Positions 4,519 to 44,723 of a DNA stretch of 64,000 bases are shown here, one piece after another (positions within the stretch are counted from its first letter, which is position 1; every line of letters begins with the position of its first letter). Made by a program: the position numbers and the translations under genes. Below the pieces are notes generated by a model, which made no database searches, was not told the DNA's origin, and saw nothing but the letters and a program-made list of their open reading frames with translations. This DNA is from Pedobacter nanyangensis (GTDB lineage: Bacteria; Bacteroidota; Bacteroidia; Sphingobacteriales; Sphingobacteriaceae): contig NZ_QMHO01000001.1 of assembly GCF_003313505.1 (NCBI RefSeq), forward strand, positions 434,001 to 498,000, in the 5' to 3' direction.

Positions 4519-4562
4519 GCCATAAAAAAAGCGAGAAGATATCTTCTCGCTTTTTTTATGGC
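4519..4562. terminator. Perfect 44-bp palindromic terminator
   Basis: Two perfectly complementary 22-base arms (core aagcgagaag/cttctcgctt flanked by A7 and T7) lie 9 bp after the protease stop. The symmetric A and T tracts allow termination from either strand. Confidence 0.85.
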
Positions 4563-8366: not shown

Positions 8367-8627
8367 CCTGCTTTTTTGTTTGATGGTTAAATCAAATATA
8401 GGACAGATAAAAACTCCTTGTAGGACCACGTTAAATTTGTTACACGATTAATTTATGCCTGCCGCAGATGCACAAATATTTTTTTTGATCCGATTATTTA
8501 ACAAACCGTATAAGGACAATCTGGTAAGTGGTATTTCTGCGACGAACATAATATCCTTTACAAGTTTCTTTTCCTCGTCGCTATTGCATAACTTCGCCGT
8601 AACAAGTTCTTAACTTTATCTCAAATC
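8367..8627. other. Intergenic leader between the M14 gene and the metE riboswitch
   Basis: This part of the 614-bp gap between the two divergent genes holds no convincing coding sequence. It must contain both promoters. TAACTTTA near 8610 is a near-match to the Bacteroidetes -7 element and could serve metE, but has no clear -33 partner. Confidence 0.5.
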
Positions 8628-8812
8628 AAACCGATAACGGTTCCCGAGTAATATCGGGATTAATAGGGAATCGTGTGCAAATCACGAGCTGTCGCGCAAC
8701 TGTAAGTCCTCTTTTGCAAAAAAGAACAGCGCTATCAAAATGCCACTGTGCCAACAAGGTTGGAATGGGAAGGCGATAGTGCTGGGGATAAGTCAGGAGA
8801 CCTGCCTTTATT
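8628..8812 (+). promoter_or_regulatory. Cobalamin (AdoCbl/B12) riboswitch upstream of metE
   Basis: The leader shows the conserved landmarks in order: ggttcccgag...aatagggaatcgtgtg near the start (P3-P4 region), the B12-box-like core caaatcacgagctgtcgcgcaactgtaa, a variable arm (8715-8785), and the 3' box gataagtcaggagacctgcc. It lies 168 bp before the metE start on the same strand. Cobalamin riboswitches switch genes off when B12 is abundant, which fits control of the B12-independent methionine synthase. Confidence 0.93.
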
Positions 8813-8980
8813 GAACTGACAATGTCTTCGCGGAATAGGACAAGGGGTCAAGGTATGATGAGTAATGCCAGAAACTTTCAGCGGTTTGGTTGGCCATGCT
8901 TGTCTATGCGCCCTTTATTTCTTCCAAAAAAACATTATTTAGGGTTAGGGCTTAAATATTTTCATTTAAACCCTTTTAAA

Positions 8981-31755: not shown

Positions 31756-31892
31756 CGATATGCCTATTAGCTATTAATCGCCTTTTAATTTTTTTTGTAA
31801 AGATACAGAGCTTTCAACTTTATCAACGCCTCAAACAAAATATAATTTAATTAAATAAATAGATTCTTATTCTTTATTAGTGTGTTGAAACT

Positions 31893-31909
31893 GTTAGAAA
31901 TATTCTAAC
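31893..31909. promoter_or_regulatory. 17-bp inverted repeat, possible operator
   Basis: GTTAGAA-ATA-TTCTAAC: perfect 7-bp arms around three bases, between the divergent nadA and nadB. The size and symmetry suit a dimeric regulator, but no NAD-repressor motif is recognised. Confidence 0.4.
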
Positions 31910-32171
31910 AAAAAATGTTGTTAAATGAGTTTTCCCATAGTTACCAACAATTTTTACGATTTTTTATTTTAAACTTCCGTTGATTTTCAATGTTATAGTT
32001 TTTACTTCATTAAATTATCAATATAGAAATGTGTATTGTTAGTAGTGTGATGAAAAGTGGATAACCTGGGTAAAGCTGCTTAAAAATTATGTAAAAGATT
32101 GTTCCAAATTTGGCTTTTTACCTTAGCTTTAAACATTCAAATTTATTTGTTAGGATAATTTATACACGCAA

Positions 32172-36191: not shown

Positions 36192-38054
36192 TTATTTAGC
36201 TATATGAACCATTAAAACTGAAATATCTGAAGGCGAAACCCCAGAAATTCGGGATGCCTGGCCCAAAGTTCTAGGTTTTATCTTCAATAATTTTTCTCTC
36301 GCTTCTTTTGATAAAGATACTAAAGTGTTGTAATCAAAATCCGGATTAATTGCTTTGTCTTCCATCTTTTGCATTTTTGCAACAATCTCCTGTTCTTTTT
36401 CAAAATAGCTTTCGTATTTGATTTTGATTTCAGCTTGCTCTATAGTTTCCTTTTCAAATTGGTTGAGTATATCGTTAAAAGGTTCGCTCACTTTTCGCAG
36501 GTCACTGATGTTTACTTGGGGCCTACTTAATATGCTAAATAATTTTACATTTTGTGTTAAAGCCGAAGTTCCTAGTTCTTCTAATAACCCATTTGCTTCC
36601 GACATTTCTATTCCTTGTTTTTTTGTGAAAGCAACGATATCGTCGGAGTCTTTTATTTTTTGATTAACAATGTCTAAGCGCTCATCATTTACCAAGCCTA
36701 GTTCATGGGCAATAGGAGTGAGGCGGATATCGGCATTGTCTTGTCTTAATAATAAACGATGTTCAGCTCTGGAGGTAAACATACGGTAAGGTTCTTCTGT
36801 ACCTTTTGTTACCAAATCATCTATCAAAACACCTATATACGACTCAGAACGTTTCATGATCAGCTCATGTTTGTCATATACCTTCTGATGGGCATTAATT
36901 CCTGCGATAAAACCTTGACTAGCAGCTTCTTCATATCCAGTAGTACCATTAATTTGGCCTGCAAAGAACAAGTTGCTGATCAGTTTGGTTTCCAAGGTTA
37001 AGGAGAGCTGGGTAGGGGGGAAGTAATCGTATTCAATCGCATATCCTGGCCTAAACATCTTCGCATTTTCAAACCCAGGAATTTGGGTAAGTGCTTTGTA
37101 CTGTACATCTTCCGGTAACGAAGTAGAAAATCCATTCACATATATCTCACAAGTATTCCATCCTTCTGGTTCTACAAATATCTGATGACGTTCTCTTTCT
37201 GCAAAGCGATTGATTTTGTCCTCGATAGAAGGGCAATAGCGAGGACCTAATCCTTTGATTCTGCCCGTAAACATAGGAGATTTTTCGAAGCCTTCTTTTA
37301 GCGTTTCGTGAACTTTATCATTGGTATAGGTAATCCAGCAGCAGCGCTGATCAGTGGGTAGTGCTACATTTGTGTAAGAAAACCTGCCTCTTTCTTCGTC
37401 TCCCCATTGTTCTTCCATCAAGGAATAGTTAAGCGAACGACCATCAATTCTGGGAGGGGTGCCCGTTTTCATGCGGCCTGCCTCAAAACCTAATTCTACC
37501 AATTGTTCCGTTAAACCAGTAGCCGATTTTTCTCCCGTTCTGCCGCCACCCATTTTTTTCTCACCGATATGAATTACTCCATTAAGGAAAGTACCATTGG
37601 TAAGCACTACAGATTTTGCTTTTATTTCTACCCCAAGATTAGTTTTTACTCCTATAACAGTATTGTTTTTTATTAATAATGAACTAACCATTTCTTGCCA
37701 AAAATCAATATTTGGAGTTCTTTCTAAGGCTAGTCGCCATTCTTCCGCAAATCTTTTTCTATCATTTTGAGTACGGGGACTCCACATCGCAGGGCCTTTG
37801 GATTTATTTAACATCCTAAATTGAATGGTGGTTTTATCGGCAATAATACCCGAGTATCCGCCCATAGCGTCTATTTCTCTAACAATTTGGCCTTTGGCCA
37901 CGCCGCCCATTGCTGGGTTACAGCTCATTTGGGCAATAGTTTCCATATTCATTGTGATCAACAAAACCGATGATCCCAGATTTGCAGCAGCAGCGGCAGC
38001 TTCGCAACCAGCATGACCAGCGCCAACTACAATTACGTCGTATTCTTTAAACAT
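36192..38054 (-). CDS. mnmG: tRNA uridine-5-carboxymethylaminomethyl modification enzyme MnmG (GidA)
   Basis: A 620-residue FAD enzyme that, with MnmE, installs carboxymethylaminomethyl groups on wobble U34 of tRNAs. The N terminus has the FAD motif [21 protein letters not shown], then [84 protein letters not shown] and [16 protein letters not shown]. The C-terminal MnmE-binding domain ends with [20 protein letters not shown]. MnmG (GidA) is often origin-proximal in bacteria, and two parS-like sites lie 12-70 bp upstream of its start. Confidence 0.98.
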
Positions 38055-38065
38055 ATATTTTATGA

Positions 38066-38081
38066 TGTTCCACGTGAAACA
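38066..38081. promoter_or_regulatory. parS site (ParB binding), copy 1
   Basis: TGTTCCACGTGAAACA matches the bacterial chromosomal parS consensus TGTTnCACGTGAAACA exactly. It lies 12 bp upstream of the mnmG start. ParB nucleates at such sites, which cluster near the origin. Confidence 0.85.
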
Positions 38082-38100
38082 TTAAATTTTTATTAGGGTA

Positions 38101-38132
38101 TTCTTCAATGTTCCACGTGGAACATTGAAGAA
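38101..38132. promoter_or_regulatory. parS-like site, copy 2, within a perfect 32-bp palindrome
   Basis: TGTTCCACGTGGAACA (38109-38124) differs from the parS consensus by one base and is fully symmetric. The symmetry extends to 16-base arms (38101-38116 and 38117-38132; outer arm TTCTTCAA / TTGAAGAA). Its centre is 43 bp from that of copy 1. Placed 6 bp after the ABC-F stop codon, it could also form a terminator-like hairpin, though without a T-run. Confidence 0.8.
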
Positions 38133-38138
38133 TGATAT

Positions 38139-40001
38139 TTATTTTTCAGATAATTCCATCCATCTTTCCATATCTGTTTCGATGGTTTGGTTGATTTTTT
38201 CTATCGATTCAGATAAATCTTGAATTTTGATATAGTCTGAAGGATCTGTACTGTTTAATTCTTGGGTGAGTTTTTTAATCTTGTTTTCGTTTTCTGCTAA
38301 AGCTTCTTCTAGTTTTTTAAATTCTTGCTGTTCTTTAAAACTTAATTTATTACTGCTTGAAGGGGATGTTGATTTTTGCTCTTGTGTTTTTTCTTTTTTT
38401 GTGGCTGCTTCTTTCTCTTGTTCAATTGCATTTCTATGCTCTGAATAGTTGCCGTTAAAAATTTTAACTTTTCCGTTGCCTTCCATAATGAATAGCTGAT
38501 CACTCATTTTATCTAACAAGTATCTGTCGTGTGAAACCAAAACCAATACCCCTGGAAAATTTTCTAGAAATTCTTCCAACACATTTAAAGTGTCTATATC
38601 CAAATCATTGGTTGGCTCATCTAAAATTAAAAAGTTTGGATTTTGCATTAAAACTTTCATTAAATGGAGGCGTTTTTTCTCCCCACCACTTAGTTTTTCT
38701 ACCAAACCATGTTGTTTTTTTGGAGGAAATAAAAATAAAGTTAATAGGGCAGAGGCGGAGATTGTTTGCCCATCGGCCATTTTAATATATTCTGCATCGG
38801 CTTTTACAATATCAATTACCCTATCTTTTTCGTTGAAATTTAAACCACCCTGTTTGTAATATCCAAACTTTGTCGTTTCCCCTAAATCTACCTTTCCACT
38901 ATCTGGGATTAAATTTCCTGTAATAATGTTTAGTAACGTAGATTTTCCAGTGCCGTTCTTGCCGGCGAGTCCAATTCTGTCGCCTCTCTTAAATATGTAA
39001 GTAAAATTATCAATGATATTTTGATCATTAAAGGCCTGTTTAATATTTTCCAGCTCCAGAATTTTATTTCCTTGCCTGGCCATTTTTACGTTTAAGGTTA
39101 CTTTTTGATGATCTACTCGCTGTTTTGTTTTTTCTTCTAGATCGTAAAATGAATCTATTCTTGCTTGAGATTTGGTTCCCCTAGCTTGCGGCATTCTGCG
39201 CATCCATTCTAGTTCTTTTTTTAATAGGTTTTTGTTTTTTTGATAAGTGGCATCGTCCTGAGCTTCTCTTTCCGCTTTCTTTTCGAGAAAATATGCATAA
39301 TTTCCATGGTAAGTAAATGTTTTACCTCGCTCTAGCTCTACGATGGTGTTACAGATGTTATCCAGAAAATACCTGTCGTGGGTTACCAGTAACAGGGTTT
39401 TATTTCCTGAAGTCAGTAATTTTTCCAACCATTCGATCGTATCAATGTCTAAATGATTGGTTGGCTCATCTAGTACGTAAATGTCTGGATCTTCAATTAA
39501 AAGTTTAGCTAAGGCCAGCCTTTTGCGTTGGCCGCCAGATAGCGTATGTATTTTTTGCTGTAGATGGTTGATGCCCATTCTACTGAGGATTGTTTTAATT
39601 TGATGTTCGTATTCCCAAGCGTTATGTTCACTTAATTCCTCATATAATCTGTTGAGCTTCTTTTCATCAGGGTGCTCTTGCTCAACTAATTCTTCATATG
39701 CTCTAATCAACTGTTGTTGTTTGTTTTCGGAGGAGAAAATGAAGTCGCTAATACTGGCGTTATCTGGAAAGGAAGGCTCTTGGTCAAGAAAACCGATCCT
39801 TACCGATTTGTTCTTTACGATTTTTCCTTCCAAGGGCGCAAAGCGTTCAGCTAGTAATTTCATGAGGGTACTTTTACCAGCGCCATTTACGCCAACAAGC
39901 GCCACACGCTGCCCCGCATTAATTCCTAATGTTAAGTTTTTAAATAGCCATTCGTCGTGATAGGCATGGCCAAGCCCTTCTGCTGCAATTAGTGTACTCA
40001 A
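38139..40001 (-). CDS. ABC-F family ATPase (Uup-like)
   Basis: A 620-residue cytosolic protein with two ABC domains and no membrane segments, of the ABC-F class that acts on ribosomes or nucleic acids. Domain 1 has Walker A GVNGAGKST, signature LSGGQRKRLALA and Walker B IYVLDEPTNHLD. Domain 2 has GKNGTGKST, LSGGEKKRLHLM and FLILDEPTNDLD. An arm/linker lies between them and a charged coiled coil follows (540-620, KKEKTQEQKSTSPSS to IEKINQTIETDMERWMELSE). The C-terminal coiled coil and length suggest the Uup branch rather than an antibiotic-resistance factor. Confidence 0.93.
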   Translation of the reverse strand: MSTLIAAEGLGHAYHDEWLFKNLTLGINAGQRVALVGVNGAGKSTLMKLLAERFAPLEGKIVKNKSVRIGFLDQEPSFPDNASISDFIFSSENKQQQLIRAYEELVEQEHPDEKKLNRLYEELSEHNAWEYEHQIKTILSRMGINHLQQKIHTLSGGQRKRLALAKLLIEDPDIYVLDEPTNHLDIDTIEWLEKLLTSGNKTLLLVTHDRYFLDNICNTIVELERGKTFTYHGNYAYFLEKKAEREAQDDATYQKNKNLLKKELEWMRRMPQARGTKSQARIDSFYDLEEKTKQRVDHQKVTLNVKMARQGNKILELENIKQAFNDQNIIDNFTYIFKRGDRIGLAGKNGTGKSTLLNIITGNLIPDSGKVDLGETTKFGYYKQGGLNFNEKDRVIDIVKADAEYIKMADGQTISASALLTLFLFPPKKQHGLVEKLSGGEKKRLHLMKVLMQNPNFLILDEPTNDLDIDTLNVLEEFLENFPGVLVLVSHDRYLLDKMSDQLFIMEGNGKVKIFNGNYSEHRNAIEQEKEAATKKEKTQEQKSTSPSSSNKLSFKEQQEFKKLEEALAENENKIKKLTQELNSTDPSDYIKIQDLSESIEKINQTIETDMERWMELSEK

Positions 40002-44634: not shown

Positions 44635-44648
44635 GGAAATTTAAAGAC

Positions 44649-44675
44649 TTACGAGTTTTCAAAAACTCCGTAAGG
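44649..44675. terminator. Weak stem-loop between convergent PepSY and serine-hydrolase genes
   Basis: Cttacgagttt pairs with aaactccgtaag (one bulge). No long T-run follows, so termination is only suggested. Confidence 0.35.
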
Positions 44676-44723
44676 GCGAAAGAAAAATATGGACTCTTTG
44701 TTCCGCTGGCATAAAAGCTGATC

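Follow-up and report, generated by a model that had tools for sequence, protein, structure and literature searches.

Two parS sites at mnmG near the probable replication origin of Pedobacter nanyangensis, one of them extended into a 34-bp palindrome with covarying arms

The window analysed here is a stretch of 64,000 nucleotides from Pedobacter nanyangensis (contig 1, positions 434001–498000). On its minus strand an ABC-F ATPase gene (38139–40001) is followed by mnmG, also called gidA, for a tRNA uridine modification enzyme (36192–38054), the gene at which parS sites are anchored across the phylum. The 84-bp intergenic gap between them (38055–38138) contains two parS sites, the mnmG-proximal site 1 at 38066–38081 (TGTTCCACGTGAAACA), which read on the minus strand occupies −27 to −12 relative to the mnmG ATG, and the ABC-F-proximal, fully symmetric site 2 at 38109–38124 (TGTTCCACGTGGAACA). 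Both match the 16-bp parS consensus TGTTNCACGTGNAACA exactly (0 mismatches), and their start-to-start distance is 43 bp. With up to 2 mismatches allowed, 0.20 matches were expected from the shuffled window and two were found, both perfect. The initial annotation had already reported parS-type sites at 38066–38081 and 38109–38124, 43 bp apart and between the ABC-F and mnmG genes, and we find it right on all of these points. It had further described site 2 as lying in a perfect palindrome of 32 bp. The perfection and the full symmetry are borne out, and the length is 34 bp: the palindrome (38100–38133), centred on site 2, consists of two 17-nt arms with no spacer, adding 9 bp to the symmetry of the site on each side, and it begins 5 nt past the stop codon of the ABC-F gene.

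A scan of the 4.7-Mb draft genome (25 contigs, 99.55% complete) gave no further parS match at 0–1 mismatch. Each of the 11 other matches has 2 mismatches and the reversed-pattern control gave 16, so there is no excess. A profile search of the whole draft found one ParB above the curated cut-off, encoded on contig 3 with a ParA-type ATPase ORF immediately upstream (L014); the presence of this parB gene answers the initial annotation, in which a genome lacking one would have counted against the parS assignment. The protein aligns with solved ParB/Spo0J chains over the N-terminal and DNA-binding region, and its recognition region is GKNRTTVANYLRLLK...SMGHARA (GKNR...GHARA). An Arg and a Gly are absolutely conserved in parS-binding ParB (PMC7383237), and the ParB here carries both, as R173 and G201 in Caulobacter numbering, which we carried over by eye using the HTH motif. 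A Noc/NBS system does not fit, since Noc needs Q and R at the two decisive specificity positions, where the sole ParB-family protein of this genome has R and G.

The association of parS with mnmG extends across Bacteroidota. The 14-bp core GTTYCACGTGRAAC was present in 57 of 60 genomes spread over the phylum, mostly exactly twice, against 0 for the reversed control, and in 54 of the 57 it lay within 2.5 kb of mnmG, whether upstream, downstream or with one copy per side. Sites away from mnmG were found in G212, G232 and G235, and the exact core was absent from G231, G245 and G253; one ParB each was present in G212, G232, G231, G245 and G253. All 80 named mnmG loci had an upstream parS at 0–2 mismatches, and 78 had two or more. 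We also considered that the two sites might be chance palindromes of E-box-like type or copies of a mobile repeat. Conservation refutes this: the sites are unique in the genome, their core is invariant amid diverged flanks, and the anchoring holds phylum-wide; nothing was found in favour, and we give the idea practically no weight. As established here from sequence, the putative centromere of Bacteroidota is normally one to a few parS sites tied to mnmG at the origin. Separately, one genome (G223) has five additional parS cores at the start of its contig 1 (bases 261–559), plus four around mnmG.

The position of site 1 raises the question of gene control, in which ParB bound at the promoter or 5' leader would repress or tune mnmG and the proximal site would mainly serve that purpose. 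The proximal core begins about 20–45 nt ahead of the ATG in most loci and, read by eye, often stands right behind a TAnnTTTG-like element and right before GGAGG, which agrees with such a role. But in many members of the phylum the sites flank mnmG or are confined to its downstream side, which a promoter role would not explain, and the genomes G212, G232 and G235 carry theirs elsewhere, so we regard regulation of mnmG as an improbable main function. In the loci themselves, the TAnnTTTG-like element abuts the proximal parS on its upstream side in L042, L046, L082, L090 and others, and in many GGAGG follows directly 3' of the site, as if the mnmG leader began at parS. Mucilaginibacter loci (L048, L056, L037 and others) have a small ORF between the ABC-F gene and mnmG, and the distal parS, about 60–75 bp before mnmG, falls within its final codons, where the core reads in frame as V-P-R-G-T (in L048, ...FINVPRGTSK and stop).

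The sites lie close to a candidate replication origin. GC skew along contig 1 (272–672 kb) is mostly negative before the sites and positive after them, and over this surrounding 400 kb the cumulative skew reaches its minimum at about 31.5 kb of the window, 6.5 kb from the parS sites, with a second low at about 39.5 kb. At the minimum is a 354-bp, 75% AT gap between the divergent genes nadA and nadB (31756–32109) with conserved DnaA-box-like motifs. We found nadB no more than about 6 kb from mnmG in 13 of 13 genus genomes checked, this one included, and in the family member G014; the gap upstream of nadB was AT-rich in nine of nine examined, with conserved motifs common to genus members, and its counterpart in G014 (L307) has six DnaA-box matches where 0.19 were expected. 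Strict-type DnaA boxes showed no enrichment in the 64-kb window as a whole. The nadA–nadB gap looks like a good oriC candidate, and a position of the parS sites near the origin is well supported. The initial annotation had likewise taken this segment to be probably origin-proximal and had proposed that all parS copies should lie near a skew minimum; both good copies in the genome do.

Complete chromosomes extend the comparison, at positions that are coarse (20-kb pieces, 20 points per genome, partly denser at mnmG). In G227, G204, G255 and G241 the fitted skew origin lies 0–6% of the chromosome from mnmG and 16–34%, or 555–924 kb, from dnaA. The complete chromosome of G014 departs from this skew pattern, which counts against it, and four of the five sampled chromosomes agree. 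The combination of mnmG and parS could serve as a simple, phylum-wide landmark for the Bacteroidota chromosome origin where dnaA misleads.

In other bacteria ParB loads SMC–ScpAB, a property that is common in ParABS systems, though not universal and not strictly defining. No canonical SMC (TIGR02168) scored over the cut-off in this genome, and the same was true of 8 of the 18 other genus members sampled. In mnmG, the 8 congeners without SMC are 86–90% identical to the window and the 10 with SMC 80–82%, and the parS sites are retained in both groups. This suggests that canonical SMC was lost in the branch to which the window belongs, and that parS was kept for an SMC-independent reason or that another condensin is present. 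Part of the textbook ParB mechanism may not apply here because canonical SMC was not found. A clade in which ParB–parS persists without canonical SMC would offer direct test ground for SMC-independent work of ParB.

The arrangement can be set beside known systems. With the chromosomal ParABS systems of Bacillus subtilis, Pseudomonas and Caulobacter (parS TGTTNCACGTGAAACA) it has in common the 16-bp consensus, a ParB whose specificity residues are the conserved R and G, and clustering near the skew origin. It differs in having only two sites, which stand beside mnmG instead of parAB, in the canonical SMC that was not found, and in the one copy inside a 34-bp palindrome with covarying arms. In gut bacteria, Bacteroides among them, parS clusters are reported to mark an ori that lies away from dnaA (PMC10197239), and the present sites share several traits with the clusters of Bacteroides caecimuris and Muribaculum intestinale: few parS sites mark ori by skew, the origin is not always tied to dnaA, and known condensins were not found; the parts of that paper available to us mention neither mnmG nor extended palindromes, unlike the present case. 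Ori-Finder placed the skew origin at mnmG in two single Flavobacteriaceae genomes (PMC11278836, PMC12843772), in the former away from dnaA; the available sections of these two reports give no parS, whereas here the pattern was tested over 60 genomes. The literature searched, outside which the main parS survey (Livny et al. 2007) falls, contained no paper joining parS and mnmG in Bacteroidota.

We next consider the palindrome around site 2. The initial annotation had called the extended symmetry unusual, and this symmetry is real and recurrent. A perfect palindrome of such length is rare in the genome but not unique. The surrounding 400 kb contain eight perfect palindromes of at least 26 bp (26–44 bp), a number of them resembling bidirectional terminators, and we dropped the idea that a perfect palindrome of 34 bp is extraordinary in itself. 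More telling is its evolution. The mnmG tree places the window in one well-supported branch of 8 rows, within which the arms are unlike in sequence yet complementary (ATTCTTCAAT, ATTTATCGT, TTATATGAT, TTTATTTGT, TTTTTTCGGT, TTTTCAGTT), and although the arms evolve fast, 7 of the 8 members keep a palindrome that is at least 28 bp long. Over seven sequences 96% of cells pair and nine pairs have changed on both sides; none of 500 shuffles scored as high, and the slid control came nowhere near. Family-wide, nine sites have at least nine extra pairs, against 0.09 expected from re-paired flanks. On the mnmG tree, palindromes of at least 28 bp require six changes, of which well-supported branches force at least four; other genera have such palindromes too, as do phylum loci beyond the family (L114, L116, L136, L145). 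Judged by these alignments and the tree, long palindromes have arisen repeatedly, and the one here is a genuine feature of its lineage. Because the arms are unlike yet complementary and the changes are forced on the tree, the symmetry has been rebuilt or maintained and not simply inherited.

The initial annotation had suggested that site 2 might combine ParB loading with RNA termination. In this account the palindrome would be parS and at the same time the intrinsic terminator of the ABC-F gene. Folded as a single site, it forms an RNA hairpin with a 15-bp stem and a 4-nt loop (−21 kcal/mol, z −8.5), which is strong and starts just past the ABC-F stop; in a fold of the whole gap the two parS copies pair together, which is uninformative on the extended arms. 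Long palindromes are also concentrated where the ABC-F stop is at most 105 nt from mnmG (9 of 21 such loci vs 2 of 56 others; Fisher p 7e-5, a value that ignores kinship and is hence inflated). But the stable hairpin is not followed by a U-tract: past the palindrome the strand of the ABC-F gene and mnmG reads ACCCTAATAAAAATTTAATG. The arms of the clade are T-rich on the 5' side and A-rich on the 3' side, the inverse of the A-then-T order in a terminator, and the terminator scan gave a single match, antisense to both genes. The window does contain a canonical palindromic terminator that has A- and T-tracts (4519–4562), and a long palindrome is missing from 12 of the 21 compact loci. Canonical intrinsic termination is rejected on the missing U-tract and the reversed arm composition, and a double role as parS and terminator is unlikely overall. 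Rfam gave no family match at the sites at gathering scores, and the gap shows no known RNA leader or riboswitch.

This leaves the question of how the arms came to match. Template switching makes perfect hairpins with multi-base compensatory change in RNA genes (PMC8794818), and the palindrome resembles these in its perfect stem and in the type of compensation, the difference being that it is built on a protein-binding palindrome. Since the compensation here is perfect, multi-base and Watson–Crick, we favour template switching, with the parS core as its seed, as the most likely and best-fitting origin, the product perhaps being kept as a 3' hairpin of the ABC-F mRNA. Selection on the arms beyond mutation, for an RNA hairpin (mRNA 3'-end stability, insulation of mnmG) or for a DNA cruciform, is a possibility that we rate below even. 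The retention of at least 28 bp in most of the clade while the arms evolve fast speaks for it, as do the covariation that no shuffle reproduced, the link to compact ABC-F/mnmG loci, itself a hint inflated by kinship, and two spaced loci (L030, L032) in which parS lies far from the stop and the ABC-F gene is followed by a strong hairpin of its own. Nearly all varying pairs, on the other hand, are Watson–Crick with few G–U intermediates, as template switching predicts; mnmG-proximal sites show excess symmetry as well, as does another class whose neighbours differ, and many compact loci have no extended symmetry. Both processes may act together, switching creating the palindrome and selection keeping it.

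Taken jointly, we are confident that the two sites represent the chromosomal parS centromere and that the palindrome is site 2 extended, most likely by template switching. By its sequence this parS is an ordinary centromere in identity, with an unusual and well-supported structural elaboration. By analogy with the ParB family, the single chromosomal ParB, whose gene lies elsewhere together with that for ParA, would recognise both sites, become loaded as a CTP clamp and spread from there across mnmG, the ABC-F gene and the origin close by, letting ParA move the sister origins apart. The palindromic core of site 2 would prime template switching during replication, in which copying turns one flank into the reverse complement of the other, and in a compact gap the resulting hairpin, right after the ABC-F stop, may persist at the 3' end of the mRNA. 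More tentatively, and in our opinion with rather low probability, the core would be held fixed by ParB and the arms, quickly evolving yet self-complementary and rebuilt several times in the phylum, would form a selected nucleic-acid hairpin, with parS having a condensin-independent role in the SMC-less clade. Loci of this kind may show in nature how a protein-binding palindrome expands into one that is long and perfect.

Three other features of the window were recorded. The palindrome at 4519–4562 is perfect over 44 bp, has A7 and T7 tracts and lies between convergent ORFs, as in a textbook bidirectional terminator. A hairpin (acttacgagttttcaaaaactccgtaag / acttacgaagttttaaaaacttcgtaagt) at 44635–44723 has a similar counterpart upstream of mnmG in L045; a clear T-tract is absent at either place, and it may be a dispersed repeat. 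The sole Rfam match is a cobalamin riboswitch (RF00174, 100.6 bits) on the plus strand at 8621–8823, right before an ORF at 8822.
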